From assembly GCA_003223215.1 (NCBI GenBank), contig QHYH01000127.1, positions 1 through 58,464 on the forward strand: a stretch of 58,464 nucleotides of DNA, written 5' to 3'. Source of the DNA: Acidobacteriota bacterium (GTDB lineage Bacteria > Acidobacteriota > Terriglobia > Acidiferrales > UBA7541). The notes under the pieces are model-generated. The model was not told where the DNA came from and did not search any database. It saw only the letters and a program-made list of their open reading frames with translations. Made by a program: the position numbers and the translations under genes. Positions 30,198 through 39,263 of the stretch are shown here, piece by piece. Position 1 is the first letter of the stretch, and every line of letters starts with the position of its first letter.

Positions 30198-31706
30198 CTA
30201 TTGCTGCGGGTTGGTGGCCCGGCTCATGGGCACGTTCGTTTCGCGTACGGGGCGGTCCACTTCAGCCGGCCGTGCCGGCGCTTCGAGGCCGTCGGTAAGC
30301 AGATAACCCTCGAGGGCGATGCCCGTGGTCCAGACGTTCTCGAGCGCGGCAACGTATTCCAGATGAAGCTGGTAAAGGGCCCTCTGGGAATCTAGGACGA
30401 CGGGATAGGAAGCGAGCATCTTTCCGTATTCGTCGACGAGAAGCGAATAGGCTTCTTTAGCGCGTGGGAGAATTCCCTCGCGGTACTCGTCGGCCATGAT
30501 GCGAGCCGTAGCGTACTGATCGAGGACGGCCGCGGCGCGTTCACGCAGCGTGAGTTCAACACGCATTTCTTCTCGCTGTGCGCGGTCCAGGTCCTGACGG
30601 GCAGCGGCGATATTGCCCTGGTTGCGGTTCCAGAGGGGAAGAGTGACGCCGACTTCGGCAATTCCTTCCCAGCCGATGGATCGGTTGATGCCCTCGAGTT
30701 GCTCCCCGAAGTACTCGGCGCCCGCCCGAAGCTGGAGATCGGGAACCGGCTCGGCTTTGCTGCGTTCGAGGACGGCCTGCGCGCGGGTGGTGGAGATCGC
30801 CGCGATCCGCACCGCCGGACTCTCTTTGGCAATGGCTTCGACGACCTCTTCCTCGTTCACTCGCGGTAGGTCAGCCTCAAGGTTGCCGTCGACAACCTGC
30901 AAGGCCAGGTCCGGCTTTCCAATCACGGCCGTTAGACCGCGCCATTCCTGGCGCAGCGTGTTTTCCCGAACGCGGACCGCCATCTGCCTGCGCCGGGCTT
31001 CGACCTCAGCCTGCAGAACTTCCGGCCTGTCCGCCTGTCCGGTGTTGCTGAGGCGATGTTCCGTTTCCGCATTGTCCTGAGCGATCCGCGCCAAGTCCCG
31101 CTGCGCTTCCAGTAGTTCCTGCGCCGCGAGCACGCGATAGAACGCGATGCGCACGGCGCTTTCGATTCGCATCTTCTGTTCTTCGGCTTCCACTTCCGCA
31201 AGGCGAATCTCCTGGCCAAAGATCTGGCGATTCTTGCCGAGTTTTCCGGCAGTGACGATGGGCTGCGAGACGAAAAATCCCTGCTTGCCGCCGCCAACCG
31301 AGCCTCCGCGGATTTCGTCACCGGTGTAGCCGACTGTCGGATTGGGATAGAGGCCCGCCTGCTGTTGTCGGGCTTTTGCCGCACGAATCTCCGCCTCCGC
31401 TTGGCGCAGGGTCGGATTGCTCTGGGCCGCCAACCGCTGCAACGAAGTCAGCGTCATCAGCGGGCCCTTGGCTTGCTCCTGCGCCTTTCCCATCCGGGGG
31501 TAGACCGGTTCCACAGTCCGCATGGTCATCTGGTGCTCGCCGTGTTGCATCTCCTGCTTGCTTTGGTCCTGTGCCGGATTCTGTTCGGGCTTTTGGTGTT
31601 GATGTTGCGGTTCCTGCGGATGCGGCGGTTGCTGGGCCGCCGCGTATCCTGCTGCCACCAGCGATGCTGTAAACAGCGCTCTCAGACTTCTCGTGAAACT
31701 CTTCAT
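30198..31706 (-). CDS. TolC/CzcC-family outer-membrane efflux protein
   Basis: The outer-membrane channel of an RND-type metal efflux system, 502 residues. A signal peptide (SLRALFTASLVAAGYAAA) is followed by an unusual His/Gln/Pro-rich linker (residues about 25-60, with HPQEPQHQHQK and MQHGEHQM) that could bind metal. Two outer-membrane efflux repeats follow: LQRLAAQSNPTLRQAEAEI, then long coiled helices, then VAEVGVTLPLWNRNQGNIA in the second repeat. It lies 36 nt after the multicopper oxidase gene. No RND pump or adaptor gene is in the window, so the partner must be encoded elsewhere. The metal is probably copper, judged from the neighbour. Confidence 0.9.
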   Translation of the reverse strand: MKSFTRSLRALFTASLVAAGYAAAQQPPHPQEPQHQHQKPEQNPAQDQSKQEMQHGEHQMTMRTVEPVYPRMGKAQEQAKGPLMTLTSLQRLAAQSNPTLRQAEAEIRAAKARQQQAGLYPNPTVGYTGDEIRGGSVGGGKQGFFVSQPIVTAGKLGKNRQIFGQEIRLAEVEAEEQKMRIESAVRIAFYRVLAAQELLEAQRDLARIAQDNAETEHRLSNTGQADRPEVLQAEVEARRRQMAVRVRENTLRQEWRGLTAVIGKPDLALQVVDGNLEADLPRVNEEEVVEAIAKESPAVRIAAISTTRAQAVLERSKAEPVPDLQLRAGAEYFGEQLEGINRSIGWEGIAEVGVTLPLWNRNQGNIAAARQDLDRAQREEMRVELTLRERAAAVLDQYATARIMADEYREGILPRAKEAYSLLVDEYGKMLASYPVVLDSQRALYQLHLEYVAALENVWTTGIALEGYLLTDGLEAPARPAEVDRPVRETNVPMSRATNPQQ

Positions 31707-31742
31707 GAGCGTAATTCCTTTTTCTAGATTTGCGATCGTTCG

Positions 31743-33113
31743 TTACATGGAGGGTGGGCGGTCTTTGTCCATCTTCATCGGTGGCATGGGCGGATTCGGT
31801 GTTCCGGCTTTAATCCGCGCCATGATCTCGTCGTATTTCTGGTTAGGCAGAATGCGCATGAGGGTCATCATTCCCTGCATGCCGGCGCTCCAGTTGGGCG
31901 GAAGGCCATAGGTTTCGGGCTTGGCAACGGCGTCGTCCATGCCCATCTCCATGAAAGCGTCCTGAGGAAACCCCGGCTGGGAGTTGGCGCTCGCTGCCAC
32001 CGGCGAAGGCGGCGAGTGCCGGAAGGGCACACTCTTGGCGAGCGTCTGCATTTGCGCCATCGCGCGATCCACGGTTTGGTCGGCGGTCATGATGGCGCGG
32101 TCGCGAATTAAATCGGACATGCTGTTCATCATGTGGTGCGGGAGGTGGCAGTGAATCATCCAGTCGCCGTTAAACTTCGCTTCGAATTCCACGACTTTGG
32201 CTTGCGCGACGCCCACGAGAACGGTGTTGGTGGGATACCAGGTACTGTCGGGCGCGCGCCCGCCTTCCGTTCCCGTTACGTAAAACTGGTGGCCATGCAG
32301 GTGGATGGGATGATGATCCATCCCGAGGTTGACGATGCGCAGGCGCACGCGATTGCCTTGACGCACGATCATCGGTGTGGTGGCGGGCGCGGCGACGCCG
32401 TTGAACGTCAGCCAGTTGAACTCCATGTTCGCGGTATTCGGGACATCCAGCCCGGGCAAGATGGCCCATTCCTGCAGAACGATTCCGAAATCATGGTCCA
32501 CATGCGGCTTGTACGGCTTCTCGGGATGGATGATGAACATGCCGATCTGACCCATCATTTCCTGCATGGCGGAGTGCGCGTGGTAGAAGAACGTGCCTTC
32601 CTGGTGAAGAGTGAATTCGTAGGCGAACTTCTCGCCCGGAGCAACCGGCATCTGGCTGATGTACGGCGCTCCATCCATTTCGATAGGGACTTCGATACCG
32701 TGCCAATGGATGGTCGTGGCTTCGGGCAGTCCGTTCTCAAAGATGATGCGGACGCGGTCGCCCTCCCGGACTTGGATGGTCGGACCAGGACAACTGCCGT
32801 TGTACCCCCAGACGGTCATGTTCCTGAACGGAACGAGTTTCCGCTGAACCGGCTCCGCTCGAAGCCGGAAGACTTTGACTCCCCGATCCATTTCGTAGGG
32901 AAGATCGGGAACGTCCGGCGTTTGCACCGGAAGCGTGGCGATTGGACCGCTCGAACCTGACTTGACGGCAGGCATTTTGTGCTGCGAATGCGGCATGCCG
33001 GGCATCGCCTGCATTTGCTGATTCTGTCCTGTGGCTAGGGCTTTCGCGGCGGCGATGAGTCCCGCGCTCAGAGTGGCCGTGCTTTGAAGGAACATCCGTC
33101 TTGCCCGATTCAT
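31743..33113 (-). CDS. Tat-exported multicopper oxidase (CopA/CueO-like)
   Basis: A periplasmic copper enzyme of 456 residues that probably oxidises Cu(I). It starts at the ATG 33113 with AAGGAG 7 nt upstream and a twin-arginine signal (MNRARRMFLQSTATLSAG). All four copper-ligand segments are present in order: TIHWHGIEVP, FFYHAHSAMQE, HPIHLHGHQFYV and MIHCHLPHHMM. The last has no added Cys-His spacing defect, so type 1 and trinuclear sites look complete. A Met-rich stretch lies after the signal (MQAMPGMPHSQHKM) and at the C-terminus, as in copper-tolerance oxidases. It is flanked by a Cys/His-rich secreted protein and a CzcC-like channel. Confidence 0.92.
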   Translation of the reverse strand: MNRARRMFLQSTATLSAGLIAAAKALATGQNQQMQAMPGMPHSQHKMPAVKSGSSGPIATLPVQTPDVPDLPYEMDRGVKVFRLRAEPVQRKLVPFRNMTVWGYNGSCPGPTIQVREGDRVRIIFENGLPEATTIHWHGIEVPIEMDGAPYISQMPVAPGEKFAYEFTLHQEGTFFYHAHSAMQEMMGQIGMFIIHPEKPYKPHVDHDFGIVLQEWAILPGLDVPNTANMEFNWLTFNGVAAPATTPMIVRQGNRVRLRIVNLGMDHHPIHLHGHQFYVTGTEGGRAPDSTWYPTNTVLVGVAQAKVVEFEAKFNGDWMIHCHLPHHMMNSMSDLIRDRAIMTADQTVDRAMAQMQTLAKSVPFRHSPPSPVAASANSQPGFPQDAFMEMGMDDAVAKPETYGLPPNWSAGMQGMMTLMRILPNQKYDEIMARIKAGTPNPPMPPMKMDKDRPPSM

Positions 33114-33312
33114 TTCATTTCTCCTTGTTCGAAATTCTTTCCGGCCGCCTTTCGGCGCGTCGGGAATAGTTGGGCTCCTCCCAGGAGGGCAGCCTCCCGT
33201 TTGGCGAGGCCATTGGCTCGGCTCAAGGGCACGATGATTCACGCCAGAGGTGCGAGCCGGAAGGCAGGCTTGGTTTGGTGATTCAAAAAAGGAACGAGCG
33301 ATGAGGCAGGAA

Positions 33313-33729
33313 CTAAATGCGAAGAACGCCAATCTGCTGATGGAGAGGAATACGCCGCGGTACAAGGGGAGGAGCCAGGTCCAATCCATCGGAAGCGGTC
33401 AGGTTGGCAACCGAAAAATTCCCGGGCGAAGCGAACAGAACCGCGGGGCTCATGTAAGCCGAAATGCTCAGCTCAATCCTTGCGACGCCTCCCGATTTTA
33501 CGAACACCACACTCGGGTGAGCATGCTTTGAACAGTCGGGCTTATCGGGCACGCTCGAACGATGGGAGTGGTGAGAGGTTGACGACTCGCAGTCATGGCT
33601 GGAGGTTTGCTGAGGGTGGTCTGGGCAAACGCCAAGTGCACAGATTGTCGCACAGGCCGAGGCGGAGGAGATCACCATCGTGAAGATGGCTGCGAGTGCT
33701 CTGTTACAGCCCGCCGTGACACGTATCAT
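33313..33729 (-). CDS. Small secreted Cys/His-rich protein, possible metal binder
   Basis: A protein of 138 residues of no family I can name. The N-terminus is a signal peptide (ALAAIFTMVISSASAC). The mature start is rich in Cys and His (ATICALGVCPDHPQQ, then SHDCESSTSHHSHRSS and DCSKHAHPS), a composition suited to copper or zinc. The ATG at 33729 is chosen because it precedes the signal peptide; an in-frame TTG lies at 33789. It is 199 nt upstream of the multicopper oxidase on the same strand and is probably the first gene of this metal unit. Confidence 0.65.
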   Translation of the reverse strand: MIRVTAGCNRALAAIFTMVISSASACATICALGVCPDHPQQTSSHDCESSTSHHSHRSSVPDKPDCSKHAHPSVVFVKSGGVARIELSISAYMSPAVLFASPGNFSVANLTASDGLDLAPPLVPRRIPLHQQIGVLRI

Positions 33730-33937: not shown

Positions 33938-35737
33938 TCACGAAGGTAGATCGCTCGAGCGAATGAGAATGGACCCATCCAGTTCGGTGTCGCCGGCAAG
34001 ATATCTCCGCTGAACCTCCTTCTCGACGGGCTGGCGGTTCGCTCTGAACACTTCAAGTTTGTCTTTACCATCTCCATGGAAGTGATCGTCCAGGGCTTCC
34101 CTGGTGATAGCGCACCGCACGCACGCTTCGCCATCTTGCCCGTAGAAAAGGACCATATCGCGCTCGTAGACGAAACTCTCCATGGGCGCCGGGAATGTCA
34201 GGTCATGCCGCTCCAGGCGCCATTGTACGCGGCGTACGATAAAGGTGGTGAACGGATGGATGTCCATCTCGATGCTGGCGCGGTCCAGCGCGGTCAGATA
34301 AGACTTGCGATCCACGATGCGAATCACCGTCCAAGGATAGCCGCCCGATGCCAGCATAACGTTCATGAGGAAGCGCGCCATGCGGCCGTTCCCATCCGAG
34401 TACGGGTGGACATAACCGAAAAGCCAGTGTCCCAACACCGCGCGCACCGAAGGCTCGGGTTCTTTTTCCAGAAGATCGAAGAACGCCGGCATGGCCTCGC
34501 GCACCGCCTCCCACCTTGGCGGAACGTAGCGCGACCCGCGCAGATACACAGGTATATTCCTGTATCCGGCCAAGGATCGCGGTTCTATCAGGCCGGCTGT
34601 AACGCAGGGCAGGAATAATTCGCGATACCAGTCGTTGTGCGCGGCGCGCGCGAGCGCGGCGGGGTTCTCACCGGCGATCACTTTCTCTACTTCTTTTTTC
34701 ACGAGCTGGAAAGCTTGCCAGTATCCCCGAGCGGCGAGGGCGTCGCGATTTCTGCGATCACCGGCGTCATTCTCGGGGTCCCAGCCGCCTTGCCGCACTC
34801 TCTCAACCAGGGCCGGCGTGACGGAGTAGCCTTCAATGGACAAGGAGTGGTAGGCATCGGTCGGATAGATTTCGTCGACGAAGCGAAGATACGGTTCCTT
34901 GTCTGCCGGGAGTCCCGGCGCCTTCGGAAACCCCGCGAGAACCTTGCCACGCATTGATTCCCAAAGCATCTCGACGCGGCTCACGATCGGAGCGGTGGGA
35001 CGGCTCGGTTTGGGGAATATCTGTCCGGCTTCAAATGGACTGCTTTCCCGTACATCATATCCCGCGCCCTTCATCGCGCGGAGAATCTCGTCCGCGAGTT
35101 CGCCGCGACCGGTTTGGCGGAAGGCTTTGGCAAGATAACCGGCTTTCGCCGAATGACCGCCGTTCAGCAGGAGCCGAAGCAGGTCCGAGGCGTCCGCGAG
35201 GCTCGCCATCACCACTTGCGCCTCGAGTGGATACAGCTGAAAAAATGATTCTGGCACGCGTACCAGCGCCGCCGCCGCCGTAAACAGACGCAATCCCTCC
35301 CGCACCGTGAGGGCCGCAGGCGGGGGCATCTCGGCAACTTTCAAATCGTAAAGCGTTGTGCCGAAGAGAAGCTTGATATCGTTATTCGTGGCTTTGGGAC
35401 TGTGGACAACTAATTGGTCCGGGATCACCGTTCTCTCGCCGTGCAAAAAAAGGGACTGCTCCGGCGACAGGTGCCACTGGTCGCCAAAACGCTCGTCGCA
35501 GTAACGCGCGCAGAATTCCCAGAACGACGCATGCCAAGGGGTGCCCTCGCCGGCCTGTGCGTCGGGGCTTGAAGAAATCAGCCAGCCCTTCATGACTTCT
35601 TGCAAGAAGCCGTTGTCTACTAGCCGTTCGCGGTGAACTCGGCTCAGGTCGTCGGAACGGAAGACACGCTGGTTGCCTTCCTGGATGGCCTTGAGTACGT
35701 CAAGCGATTCAGCCAGTTTTTCGTTGGGCGAGGGCAT
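33938..35737 (-). CDS. Fic-domain protein (class II, autoinhibited)
   Basis: A predicted AMP-transferase of 599 residues. The Fic motif HPYSDGNGR lies at about residues 444-452 with the catalytic His. The inhibitory motif SLSIEG, matching [S/T]xxxE[G/N], lies at about 298-303 ahead of the core, as in class II Fic proteins. The N-terminal 60 residues (LKAIQEGNQRVFRSDDLSR region) look like a small winged-helix-type domain, followed by an undefined alpha-helical part. GGAGG lies 4 nt before the ATG at 35737. Upstream are five tandem 24-bp repeats, so autoregulation by the N-terminal domain is a reasonable guess. No separate antitoxin gene is adjacent. Confidence 0.88.
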   Translation of the reverse strand: MPSPNEKLAESLDVLKAIQEGNQRVFRSDDLSRVHRERLVDNGFLQEVMKGWLISSSPDAQAGEGTPWHASFWEFCARYCDERFGDQWHLSPEQSLFLHGERTVIPDQLVVHSPKATNNDIKLLFGTTLYDLKVAEMPPPAALTVREGLRLFTAAAALVRVPESFFQLYPLEAQVVMASLADASDLLRLLLNGGHSAKAGYLAKAFRQTGRGELADEILRAMKGAGYDVRESSPFEAGQIFPKPSRPTAPIVSRVEMLWESMRGKVLAGFPKAPGLPADKEPYLRFVDEIYPTDAYHSLSIEGYSVTPALVERVRQGGWDPENDAGDRRNRDALAARGYWQAFQLVKKEVEKVIAGENPAALARAAHNDWYRELFLPCVTAGLIEPRSLAGYRNIPVYLRGSRYVPPRWEAVREAMPAFFDLLEKEPEPSVRAVLGHWLFGYVHPYSDGNGRMARFLMNVMLASGGYPWTVIRIVDRKSYLTALDRASIEMDIHPFTTFIVRRVQWRLERHDLTFPAPMESFVYERDMVLFYGQDGEACVRCAITREALDDHFHGDGKDKLEVFRANRQPVEKEVQRRYLAGDTELDGSILIRSSDLPS

Positions 35738-35761
35738 GAGGCCTCCATCTTCGTAGATCAT

Positions 35762-35881
35762 TACAAGTTTATTGTGCCGAGTAAGTACAAGTCTATGATG
35801 CCGCATTACTGCAAGTCAATTGTGCTGTATAGGTGCAAGTATAGTGCGCCGTATAAATGCAAGTGTATCATGCTTTATCTT
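35762..35881. repeat. Five tandem imperfect 24-bp repeats upstream of fic
   Basis: Units begin at 35762, 35786, 35810, 35834 and 35858 with no spacers. Each starts TRCAAGT and keeps TA at or near positions 9-10, GC at 15-16 and mostly AT at 20-21, while position 8 and positions 22-24 vary freely. Variation is not confined to third codon positions in any frame, which argues against a coding repeat. The array ends 24 nt upstream of the Fic start codon, on the side where its promoter must lie. On the minus strand the repeats contain ACTTGYA and TATAC-like pieces that could serve as -35 and -10 boxes. Confidence 0.9.
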
Positions 35882-36351: not shown

Positions 36352-38457
36352 GTGATTGGTCAGGTTCTCGGCCATTGTCGTGTCCAGGCAAAGATTGGCG
36401 AAGGTGGCATGGGCGTCGTTTATCGCGCCTACGACGAAGTGTTGCAGCGCGATGTGGCCGTAAAAGTTGTCAAGAAGGATCCTCAGCTGGATTCCTCGGC
36501 AAGCCAGAATCTACTCAAAGAAGCGCGGGCTTCTTCCTCTCTCGCTCATCCCAACATTTGCACGATCCACGACGTTGGCGAAACCGAAGGCGAACTTTAC
36601 ATTGTCATGGAACTCGTGGAAGGCAAGTCCCTCTACGAGATGTGCCGAGATGGCGGATTGCCCCCGGAGCTAGTCATCCGCTACGGCGCGCAGATCTCGA
36701 GCGCGCTTGTCCGCGCTCATGACCGAGGCATCGTCCATCGAGATCTGAAGACCGCGAACATCGTGGTCACCGCAGAAGGGCTGGCAAAAGTACTCGATTT
36801 CGGTTTGGCAAAACGAGTGGGGGATGGTTTATTCGAGGGTCCTACTCGCACTCTTGAAACGATCGAGGACGGCTCCACACTGAGCGGCACTTTGGCTTAT
36901 ATGTCGCCGGAAGTCCTGCGCGGAGAAGGCTCCGACTACCGTTCGGATCTCTGGGCGCTGGGAGTTGTGCTTTATGAAGCGGCTTCCGGACGCCGGCCTT
37001 TTGAAGGGCCGACTGGCTTTGCATTGAGCTCGGCCATAATGCGCGAATTGCCCAAACCGCTCGGTCCTCCTGTCCCGCCCGGCCTTTGGGCCATCATCCA
37101 GCGCTGCCTGTCGAAAGAACCGATGCAACGTTACCAGCGCGCCGGAGAAGCTCTAGCGGCGCTTGAGGCCATCCAATCCGCGGCCGTTTTCGCACCGGCG
37201 CCCAGCGCCGACCGCAGCGAACCTCGAACCACGGTCTTGCACAGTGTGCGCCACGCGCGCGTCCGCAAAGGAGATTTTCTTTTGCTGGTAGGAACAACCA
37301 AAGGAGCTTTTATCCTTCGCTCCAACATCAACCGCGCCCGCTGGGACGTGGGTGGTCCTTATTTCCACGGTTACGCGGTTTACACGATGGTTTATGACGG
37401 CCGTCGTGGGCAACACCGCATCTGGGCATCGACGCAAAGCTTTTGGGGCACTCTGCTGCGCTCGAGCGGGGACTTTGGCAAGAGCTGGACGAATCCGCAG
37501 GAGGCCAATATTCGATTTCCTGCGGACACCGGTGTTTCCTTGAGGAACATCTGGCAGATCTCGCTCGGCCGGGCGGATGAGCCTGACGTTCTTTATTGCG
37601 GCGTCGAGCCGGCGGCACTTTTCGAAACCCATGATGGCGGGGAGACGTGGTCGTTGGTACGCGGTCTGTTCGATCATCCGCATCGCCCGCGTTGGGTGCC
37701 CGGCAATGGCGGATTGGCGCTACACACGATCGTGCTCGACCCTGCCGACAAGCAGCGCATGTACGTGGCGATTTCCGCTGGCGGCGTTTATCGCACCAAT
37801 GATGCGGGACGTACGTGGACGGCGCAAAACAGGGGAATCCGGGTCACGTTCATGCCTGGCAAATACCCCGAGTTCGGGCAATGTGTTCACAAGATCGTGA
37901 TGCACCCGGCGCGCCCCGCACGCCTGTTCCTGCAAAACCATTGGGGCTTATATCGCTCGGACGACGGCTCCGAAAACTGGACCGACATCGCTAATGGAGT
38001 GCCGTCAGACTTCGGCTTTGCCATGGTCATGCATCCCAGGAATCCCGATTGCGTCTACATCGTTCCCGTCGAGTCCGACCAGTTTCGCTGCGCGTGCGAT
38101 GGCCGGCTGCGAGTTTATCGCACGCGCAACGGTGGGGCCTCCTGGGAGCCGCTCGCTCGAGGCTTGCCGCAAAAACAGGCTTACGAAACGGTCTTGCGCG
38201 ATGCCATGACGGTAGATTCGCTCGATCCGGCGGGAATTTTCTTCGGCACAAGAAGCGGGCAACTCTTTGGCTCGTGCGACGAGGGAAGAACTTGGAACAA
38301 AATCCTCGATGGACTGCCCTCAATTGTCTGTGTGCGGAGCGCATTTATCGAGGATGGGTCGGCATCTTCAGGCCCGACCGGGCCCGTTACTCCGCCTCCG
38401 TCTTCGTCTCGAAAAAGCGCTCACCCGCCAAGCCACTCGCGGCGAAAAAGAAGATAA
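36352..38457 (+). CDS. Ser/Thr protein kinase fused to a BNR/sortilin-like beta-propeller
   Basis: A 701-residue fusion. Residues about 9-275 are a complete bacterial eukaryote-like kinase: glycine loop IGEGGMGVVY (15-24), Lys38 in VAVKVVKK, HRDLKTAN (129-136), DFGLAKR (149-155) and a Met-Ser-Pro-Glu activation segment. Residues about 305-680 form a BNR/VPS10-type propeller with repeated Asp-box motifs: HDGGETWSLV, NDAGRTWTAQ, SDDGSENWTD, RNGGASWEPL and DEGRTWNKIL. No membrane helix separates the two parts, so the propeller should be cytoplasmic, unlike most PASTA or extracellular-sensor kinases. The GTG start at 36352 has AGGGGAG 6 nt upstream. The MoaD-like gene starts 2 nt after its stop. 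Confidence 0.9.
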   Translation: MIGQVLGHCRVQAKIGEGGMGVVYRAYDEVLQRDVAVKVVKKDPQLDSSASQNLLKEARASSSLAHPNICTIHDVGETEGELYIVMELVEGKSLYEMCRDGGLPPELVIRYGAQISSALVRAHDRGIVHRDLKTANIVVTAEGLAKVLDFGLAKRVGDGLFEGPTRTLETIEDGSTLSGTLAYMSPEVLRGEGSDYRSDLWALGVVLYEAASGRRPFEGPTGFALSSAIMRELPKPLGPPVPPGLWAIIQRCLSKEPMQRYQRAGEALAALEAIQSAAVFAPAPSADRSEPRTTVLHSVRHARVRKGDFLLLVGTTKGAFILRSNINRARWDVGGPYFHGYAVYTMVYDGRRGQHRIWASTQSFWGTLLRSSGDFGKSWTNPQEANIRFPADTGVSLRNIWQISLGRADEPDVLYCGVEPAALFETHDGGETWSLVRGLFDHPHRPRWVPGNGGLALHTIVLDPADKQRMYVAISAGGVYRTNDAGRTWTAQNRGIRVTFMPGKYPEFGQCVHKIVMHPARPARLFLQNHWGLYRSDDGSENWTDIANGVPSDFGFAMVMHPRNPDCVYIVPVESDQFRCACDGRLRVYRTRNGGASWEPLARGLPQKQAYETVLRDAMTVDSLDPAGIFFGTRSGQLFGSCDEGRTWNKILDGLPSIVCVRSAFIEDGSASSGPTGPVTPPPSSSRKSAHPPSHSRRKRR

Positions 38458-38459
38458 TT

Positions 38460-38765
38460 GTGCCGGTGACCTTTCATATTCCCGGGCCGTTGCGCGAATT
38501 CACTGGAGGGCGCAGCAGAGTCACGGTCGAGCCATCACCAGTCACTTTGGCGGAGGCCTTGGCTGCACTGTGGAGGCTACACCCCGGTCTCAGGGATCGC
38601 CTCGCCACCGAACAAGGACAAATGCGCGAGCACGTCAGCATTTTCGTCGGTGACGAGGATGTTCGATATACCGGAGGCCTCACGAGTCCTGTTCCGCCGG
38701 GATCGGATATCTTTATTGTGCCAGCCATCAGCGGCGGCTGCGGGTCTGCTTTAACGATCTTTTAG
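38460..38765 (+). CDS. MoaD/ThiS-like ubiquitin-fold protein with a tail beyond Gly-Gly
   Basis: A 101-residue beta-grasp protein starting at a GTG 2 nt after the kinase stop, so translation is probably coupled. The N-terminal strand VTFHIPGPLREFTGG, the helix TLAEALAALWRLHPGL, and the ending IFIVPAISGG match MoaD/ThiS sulfur carriers. In those proteins the Gly-Gly is the extreme C-terminus and is adenylated by an E1-like enzyme. Here the pair (residues 92-93) is followed by CGSALTIF, so trimming would be needed, as for QbsE-type carriers. Its pairing with a BNR propeller is unusual. Its substrate is unknown, and no E1-like or JAMM protease gene is in the window. Confidence 0.8.
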   Translation: MPVTFHIPGPLREFTGGRSRVTVEPSPVTLAEALAALWRLHPGLRDRLATEQGQMREHVSIFVGDEDVRYTGGLTSPVPPGSDIFIVPAISGGCGSALTIF

Positions 38766-38909: not shown

Positions 38910-39263
38910 ATGGACAAGAAACGACTCGATTATTACAAGAAGAAATTGCTGGCGCGGCGCGAAGAACTGACGAAGACCATCGCACGCACCCAGGAAGAAG
39001 GACGGACAGCGGACGAAGATCCCACGGTCGACCTGGCAGACAAAGCGGCCAACTCCTATACCAAGGAATTTCTCTTCGGCATGACCAATACCGACCGCTC
39101 GCTCTTGAACCTGATTGATGCCGCGCTAAAGCGCATCCAGGAAGATGAATACGGCGTTTGCGCCAACTGCCAAGAGGAGATGCAGCAAAAGCGGTTGGAG
39201 GCAGTGCCGTGGGCCAAGCACTGTATTGCCTGCCAGGAAAAATTGGAGCAAGGCCTGCTATAG
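38910..39263 (+). CDS. DksA/TraR-type C4 zinc-finger protein
   Basis: A 117-residue protein with an N-terminal coiled-coil hairpin (residues about 1-75, KKRLDYYKKKLLARREELTK) and a C-terminal zinc finger with two Cys pairs, YGVCANCQEEM and KHCIACQEKLEQ. Proteins of this family insert the coiled coil into the RNA-polymerase secondary channel and modulate initiation, often with ppGpp. The tip region holds DPTVDLADKAANSY, where the acidic DxxDxA-like signature of DksA would lie. It is transcribed alone from a clear promoter. Confidence 0.88.
   Translation: MDKKRLDYYKKKLLARREELTKTIARTQEEGRTADEDPTVDLADKAANSYTKEFLFGMTNTDRSLLNLIDAALKRIQEDEYGVCANCQEEMQQKRLEAVPWAKHCIACQEKLEQGLL

Follow-up and report, generated by a model that had tools for sequence, protein, structure and literature searches.

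The propeller half of a kinase-propeller fusion protein and the MoaD/CysO-like ubiquitin-fold protein encoded directly behind it very probably form a two-protein unit that is found across several phyla. We describe the unit from one stretch of Acidobacteriota DNA, hereafter the window (58,464 nucleotides; contig QHYH01000127.1 of assembly GCA_003223215.1), and from its relatives in other genomes. The original prediction had taken kinase, propeller and carrier together as a signalling or protein-modification system. The pairing of propeller and carrier stands, the kinase turns out not to belong to the core, and the signalling part is speculative.

Features of the window

The coordinates of the two genes and their parts are given in Table 1. 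In relatives of the same genus (L018-L020) an ATG stands at the corresponding position, which backs the start of the kinase-propeller gene. The kinase carries all four residues by which Hanks-type kinases are recognised, namely the VAIK lysine (here VAVK, K38), the HRD aspartate (D131), the DFG aspartate (D149) and the APE glutamate (here in an APE-like SPE), and the Sortilin-Vps10/BNR Pfam matches lie in the second half of the 701 amino acid protein. No transmembrane helix was indicated in this protein by a Kyte-Doolittle scan, where the highest mean over 19 residues was 1.19. The kinase does not fit the PknB-like receptor layout of a transmembrane helix plus an outside sensor, and the lack of a membrane helix in the fusion implies a cytoplasmic location. 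Pfam, motifs and hydropathy thus agree with the predicted fusion of a complete kinase to a BNR/sortilin-type propeller without a membrane helix.

Table 1. Positions of the kinase-propeller and carrier genes and of their parts, in window coordinates.
Feature	Position	Strand	Remarks
Kinase-propeller fusion gene	36352..38457	+	GTG start, 701 aa, without membrane helix
Hanks-type Ser/Thr kinase domain, aa 11-262	36382..37137	+	Pfam PF00069 (Pkinase), E 8.4e-51
7-bladed Asp-box/BNR propeller, aa 305-665	37264..38346	+	AlphaFold2 model and 3b7f match
Polybasic C-terminal tail, aa 666-701 (36 residues)	38347..38454	+	Low-confidence in AlphaFold2 model
MoaD/CysO-like ubiquitin-fold protein	38460..38765	+	GTG start, 101 aa, ThiS/MoaD family
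Gly-Gly, aa 92-93	38733..38738	+	Where sulfur-carrier proteins end
Eight-residue tail CGSALTIF after Gly-Gly	38739..38762	+	Window carrier does not end in Gly-Gly

The stop codon of the fusion gene (38455-38457) is separated from the GTG at 38460 by exactly the 2 nt that had been predicted, provided that this GTG is the start of the carrier gene; in relatives the corresponding codon is ATG or GTG. The ubiquitin fold of the product was likewise recovered, the match to Pfam PF02597 being over the cut-off (E 5.2e-9). SAMP1 is the best NCBIfam match (E 1.9e-13), although its 50.8 bits stay below the cut-off of 60. By sequence the nearest solved chains are CysO-type, and the top fold matches are the CysO chains 4n6e_B and 3dwg_C, which places the protein in the beta-grasp family. 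In a poorly resolved tree the carrier lies outside four CysO-type references with a support of 94. The residues that follow its Gly-Gly had been missed in the original prediction.

Compared with a same-genus relative (L014), dN/dS is about 0.07 for the kinase, 0.05 for the propeller and 0.12 for the MoaD-like protein, and all three are thus under purifying selection. No RNA family scored over its gathering score between positions 35800 and 39300, and no tRNA was found within the window.

Occurrence of the pair

A sample of 247 Acidobacteriota genomes was used, and at a threshold of E 1e-50 the propeller was recovered from 86 of them, at 92 places in total. A MoaD model was then applied to 80 of the 86, the six omitted genomes, with one place each, all belonging to one oversampled genus. 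Among the matches listed, at least 77 of the 86 propellers in the 80 genomes have a same-strand MoaD gene no more than 1.2 kb away (49 downstream and 28 upstream, two of the latter fused), and none has one on the opposite strand. A finer local scan gained a nearby MoaD gene for four of the nine misses (L141, L189, L192, L204).

When all loci are taken together, 158 of 194 non-identical propeller segments (four of which are fragments under 300 amino acids) are paired within 1.3 kb, always on the same strand, with the MoaD gene downstream in 129 and upstream in 29. Two of the 158 are double credits (a split propeller, L072, and a second propeller in L217), leaving 156 distinct carriers. The pair is therefore not unique to this genome. 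The suggestion, in the original prediction, that BNR-propeller and MoaD/ThiS genes are neighbours elsewhere was correct, and an adjacency restricted to this genome, which had been named as the refuting outcome of such a gene-neighbour survey, is ruled out.

The pair is also present on contigs of Actinomycetota, Gemmatimonadota, Verrucomicrobiota and Rokubacteria and, with the MoaD gene upstream of the propeller, on annotated plasmids of Pseudomonas, Mitsuaria and Burkholderia. MoaD adjoins the propeller in 5 of the 10 plasmid records examined out of 17, and the breadth outside Acidobacteriota rests on these 10 records and on the best 80 loci. A relative of the 3b7f propeller in Cupriavidus metallidurans has a MoaD gene upstream as well. 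Phage records gave no propeller match at E 1e-10.

No nearby partner was found for the remaining 36 of the 194 propellers. Such unpaired propellers come from Streptomyces and Chloroflexota as well as from some Alphaproteobacteria and some close Acidobacteriota. A search for an undetected small MoaD reading frame near 17 selected propellers without a partner, among them forms from Streptomyces, Chloroflexota and order relatives, gave none that was convincing.

A third recurring partner was looked for by a Pfam scan of the longest flanking reading frames within about 1 kb (196 of 201 used). Among the families listed, no further one exceeded 3 of 141 or 2 of 55, with the reservation that a partner could be missed by a scan of this kind; it showed ThiF in two loci, where a targeted search brought the number of loci with an E1 to six. 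No E2-like family recurs among the neighbour families listed.

Natural fusions and tree congruence

In two genomes of different families the MoaD-like protein and the propeller are encoded in one frame, with MoaD first and the Gly-Gly retained internally between the two parts (L138, L139). Pfam ThiS is over the cut-off in both fusions, and the propeller family is over it in L139 and just under it in L138.

Furthermore, the distances between carriers and those between propellers were compared for 90 pairs, giving a correlation of 0.859 where the permuted maximum is 0.065. This value is also raised by shared species history, so that the comparison within genomes is cleaner: where a genome has several pairs, the carrier clusters with its own propeller in 8 of 9 cases, and the lone exception is the double credit of L217, in which a second propeller, located where the stretch ends, was credited with its neighbour's carrier. 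The fusions and the congruent trees support a joint function of carrier and propeller.

Fold and conserved residues of the propeller

The AlphaFold2 model of the 399 amino acid propeller region has a pLDDT of 91.1 and a pTM of 0.87. By sequence, the solved structure closest to the propeller half is 3b7f_A (E 1.4e-74), and the model matches 3b7f with a Z of 50.9 over 356 residues (1.8 A, 37% identity). The region is thus a close match to the 7-bladed Asp-box propellers of the 3b7f type, the number of blades being borrowed from 3b7f as given in the available text of PMC2716378.

Beyond 3b7f the fold matches fall to a Z of 27.7, and GH74 xyloglucanases are among them. The drop argues against an ordinary glycoside hydrolase or sialidase that stands next to MoaD by accident, a reading for which the xyloglucanase matches and the names in plasmid records ('exo-alpha-sialidase', 'sialidase family protein') could be cited. 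Neither the soluble fusion to a kinase nor the MoaD adjacency in Acidobacteriota, together with two fusions, is what such an enzyme would lead one to expect, and we regard this reading as barely credible.

All of 105 diverse propellers share ten invariant residues (T315, K317, H458, S475, H513, Q528, H530, W448, W543, W648). R616 is kept in 104 of the 105, and R535 and R590 are also near-invariant. From the predicted strand order, several of the conserved His, Gln and Arg residues probably lie near the mouth of the channel. Unpaired propellers keep the invariant residues equally well, which argues that the site serves more than MoaD. Positions conserved only when MoaD is present would hint at a docking surface, and in the comparison just two weak ones were found, G438 and D553.

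The kinase-bearing group

A kinase is present in 19 of the 158 pairs and missing from the other 139. In a tree of 106 propellers, 18 kinase forms make up one group that takes a single change (SH-aLRT 99), the 19th form (L021) having been thinned out of this tree. The MoaD tree, which is short and poorly resolved, takes two changes for the kinase label instead of one. Because so few pairs have the kinase, and because they are one group on the propeller tree, we consider it a late addition and not the core of the system.

The kinase forms are spread over no fewer than four families of the class (f1, f6, f7, f9) plus one more family of the phylum (f38). One form (L059) comes from a contig that bears the label Verrucomicrobia, possibly through a binning error. 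The equivalents of K38, D131 and D149 are kept in all 19, the window included, while HHD or HGD replaces HRD in three, with loss of the arginine.

The polybasic tail of the propeller was compared between groups of forms, fusions and forms fitting none of the groups being left out of the tally. Tails with a net charge of at least +6 are found in 17 of 19 kinase forms and in 12 of 45 members of a related kinase-free group; the counts elsewhere are 0 of 56 for the second large group, 0 of 27 for forms with MoaD upstream and 1 of 36 for unpaired forms.

A generic kinase could have captured the propeller, with the MoaD gene just remaining part of the transcript, in which case the kinase would be unrelated to the carrier. 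The kinase-free majority of pairs is in line with this, as is one kinase-bearing unit (G245) whose carrier is damaged, with about 36 internal residues missing. On the other hand, MoaD lies downstream in 19 of 19 kinase fusions, and purifying selection acts on kinase, propeller and carrier alike; we find this explanation very improbable.

Possible activation of the carrier

Six of 194 loci, none of them with a kinase form, have a ThiF-family E1 of the MoeZ type next to MoaD or the propeller. A rhodanese match is seen in five of the six E1s; the remaining one is truncated by the end of the locus. E1s with a rhodanese domain are typical of sulfur transfer. About 0.3 such neighbours are expected by chance (an estimate based on about three such genes per genome), and the Poisson sums for six loci are 3e-7 with a mean of 0.26 and 1e-5 with a mean of 0.5. 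One pair (L148) is found beside a PLP-dependent enzyme of the cysteine-synthase type.

In the window's genome there are three ThiF matches over the cut-off, one of which is a MoeZ with rhodanese, so that an E1 is available. Away from the window's pair, an operon elsewhere in the genome (G000:C246) holds CysM-like, JAMM, CysO-like and MoeZ genes, JAMM and MoeZ being identified by Pfam, and this operon has the only Prok-JAB match of the genome. CysM, Mec and MoeZ in one operon with the carrier, the arrangement of the CysO pathway, is not what surrounds the window's pair.

Gly-Gly is found at the end of the aligned domain in 153 of 158 partners, of which 116 stop exactly there and 37 continue (a number that includes the two fusions and counts L072 twice). 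All four Nonomuraea partners found have lost the Gly-Gly and kept the pair; no partner was found for a fifth Nonomuraea locus (L101).

Residues after the Gly-Gly, as tails or fusions, are found in 22 of the 58 genomes whose JAMM match is strong and in 0 of the other 21 (79 genomes; Fisher 4e-4), 'strong' being about E 5e-14, a threshold set after the table was seen. Counted by family, the figures are 14 of 24 and 0 of 12. Both counts leave out the tailed carriers of other collections (L055, L063 and L067 among them), and in G012, one of the genomes counted as lacking a strong match, a contig edge holds a JAMM fragment. Nine of 80 genomes have no JAMM match at E 1e-3, and none of these nine is tailed. 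In phylogenetically independent pairs the link is not significant (median p 0.25), with no pair in the opposite direction. Additionally, a Prok-JAB match is present in 13 of 13 genomes tested that have a kinase fusion or a close relative of one, one of these matches being a weak fragment at a contig edge. Cleavage of MoaD fusions by JAMM was proposed in a 2006 survey (PMC1779556, available text), and the cutting of a Deinococcus MoaD-MoaE fusion by DRJAMM provides a precedent (PMC8832034, available text).

The original prediction had left room for protein modification, and the gene context (E1 with rhodanese, JAMM, Gly-Gly) favours sulfur-carrier chemistry at least as much. In a SAMP1-like modification the carrier would be conjugated to lysines, the propeller would select the target or be it, JAMM would remove the carrier and the kinase would be co-regulated. 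SAMP1 as the best, if sub-threshold, NCBIfam match would suit this, and so would the lysine/arginine-rich tail of the kinase clade and the Prok-JAB matches in all 13 genomes. Since the E1s beside the pair carry rhodanese, neither an E2-like nor any other third family recurs among the neighbour families listed, and most pairs are without a polybasic tail, we think such a modification improbable.

The main rival is a stable complex in which the MoaD-like protein acts as a constitutive subunit, either structural or regulatory, its Gly-Gly chemistry being ancestral and now optional; the propeller would then bind a small molecule or a protein, and the kinase would be the output. The loss of Gly-Gly in Nonomuraea, the internal Gly-Gly of both fusions and the rarity of linked E1 (or JAMM) genes point this way and count against simple carrier chemistry, and the conservation of the propeller residues in the absence of a nearby MoaD is also in keeping with a subunit. 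It would, however, leave unexplained why Gly-Gly is so widely retained and exactly C-terminal in most partners, why E1 adjoins the propeller in six loci and why, in the 79 genomes, tails are confined to those with strong JAMM. We therefore hold it to be rather unlikely, though worth serious attention.

Relation to known systems

Propeller-fused bacterial Ser/Thr kinases combine a Hanks-type kinase with a propeller sensor and are often membrane-anchored with the sensor outside. The fusion in the window, in contrast, is soluble, and its propeller is from a carrier-linked family. Ubiquitin-fold sulfur carriers, dedicated or shared, serve a client enzyme in BexX-CysO, ThiS-ThiG and MoaD-MoaE, and we know of no propeller client among such pairs. 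In kind, the window's unit would be a carrier-client pair of this sort, resembling BexX-CysO (after the title of PDB 4n6e), ThiS-ThiG and MoaD-MoaE with a propeller as client.

The Mycobacterium cysteine pathway of CysO, CysM, Mec (JAMM) and MoeZ, as described in the available text of PMC3227635, uses the same type of Gly-Gly carrier, and a MoeZ-type E1 and JAMM are present in the window's genome. The partner here is a propeller and not a cysteine synthase, whereas a separate CysO-like operon exists in the same genome and the window's carrier falls outside the CysO references. The Deinococcus MoaD-MoaE protein (PMC8832034, available text) likewise has a MoaD with residues past the terminal glycines and is activated by a JAMM cut, but its partner is the molybdopterin synthase MoaE, in place of which we find a propeller, a short tail or a read-through neighbour. 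Reut_B4987 (PDB 3b7f) has the same fold and family as the window's propeller and is without a kinase; its function is entered as 'Not known' in the available part of the account of 7-bladed Asp-box propellers (PMC2716378).

A full-text literature search, with most subscription papers outside its scope, gave among the papers listed no description of the MoaD-propeller pair, of a propeller client or of the kinase fusion. The propeller client and the kinase fusion are absent from the available text of PMC1779556, PMC1949818, PMC2948915, PMC2716378, PMC3227635, PMC8832034 and PMC3495685. The 2006 survey of prokaryotic ubiquitin-like operons (PMC1779556) nowhere uses the terms propeller, BNR, sialidase or WD40.

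Proposed mechanism

The explanation we favour is a dedicated thiocarboxylate carrier with a client propeller, served by MoeZ and JAMM from elsewhere in the genome, to which a kinase output was added in one clade. The core would be the CysO/MoaD-like carrier and the soluble 7-bladed 3b7f-type propeller as its dedicated client. An unlinked JAMM peptidase would trim any residues after the Gly-Gly, and an unlinked MoeZ-type E1 with rhodanese would adenylate and thiocarboxylate the terminus. The carrier would then dock on the propeller, whose invariant polar residues may act on or bind a ligand together with it. In the window's clade the N-terminal kinase would turn occupancy by carrier or ligand into phosphorylation, and the polybasic tail would direct the protein to an acidic partner, for example nucleic acid, the ribosome or a membrane. 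Since we infer the sulfur chemistry and the kinase coupling, along with docking and catalysis, we give the explanation as a whole slightly less than an even chance, in spite of our high confidence in the unit itself.

Conclusion

A bolder version, which we put forward as an outside chance, is that the propeller is a receptor that tells loaded (thiocarboxylated) from unloaded carrier, the cytosolic kinase signalling the state of carrier or sulfur and the kinase-free pairs constituting an undescribed carrier-client family. If true, this would be a signalling module that reads a ubiquitin-like protein in bacteria. In the plasmid records examined, the unit is hidden by the misleading names 'sialidase' and 'MoaD/ThiS'. 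The natural fusions and the kinase clade offer single-chain constructs and phosphorylation as a read-out, and the two-gene unit, occurring across several phyla, would be a further class of client for ubiquitin-like sulfur carriers.

Propeller-MoaD pairs and flanking genes

The window's own genome carries a second pair of an Asp-box propeller and a MoaD-like carrier (L002), and its carrier ends exactly at Gly-Gly. A Pfam search with this carrier gave no match up to an E-value of 0.1. The genes flanking the window's pair are listed together with the related loci; the HPYSDGNGR motif in one of their products is Fic-like.

Positions of related units and of genes near the window's pair
Feature	Location	Positions	Strand	Basis or remark
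Second propeller-MoaD pair in the window's genome (L002)	G000:C43	1432-2624 (locus)		Subtype other than the window's, without kinase
Kinase-bearing unit, MoaD without ~36 internal residues (L141)	G245:C332
Adjacent TolC-like outer-membrane and multicopper-oxidase-like proteins	Window	30198-33389	-	Putative, from inspection of translations
Protein with HPYSDGNGR motif	Window	33938-35806	-	Sequence
DksA/TraR-type zinc-finger protein	Window	38910-39263	+	Pfam

At two loci, L056 and L217, a kinase-type pair is directly followed on the same strand by a second propeller, which belongs to the other subtype. This second propeller has a MoaD of its own in L056, while the stretch fetched for L217 stops before any such gene would be visible.

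Putative DNA glycosylases adjoin the propeller or MoaD in L016, L024, L068 and L193, as well as in the Streptomyces loci L047, L084, L086 and L116. We take them to represent four families (MutY, Fpg, Tag and Ung), and by a post hoc tally made without formal control the adjacency occurs in about five lineages.

Carrier integrity and read-through frames

Four Nonomuraea propeller partners (L049, L099, L121, L125) have kept the MoaD-like domain and lost the terminal Gly-Gly. The internal gap in the L141 carrier represents either decay or an assembly fault.

In L016, L068, L095, L148 and L173 the MoaD frame has no stop and is continuous into the downstream gene. The joined genes putatively encode the DNA glycosylases MutY and Tag, a thioesterase and a TypA-like GTPase, and one of them an unknown protein. 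Assembly or frame errors may account for these frames; taken as read, such MoaD fusions recall ubiquitin fusions that need a peptidase.
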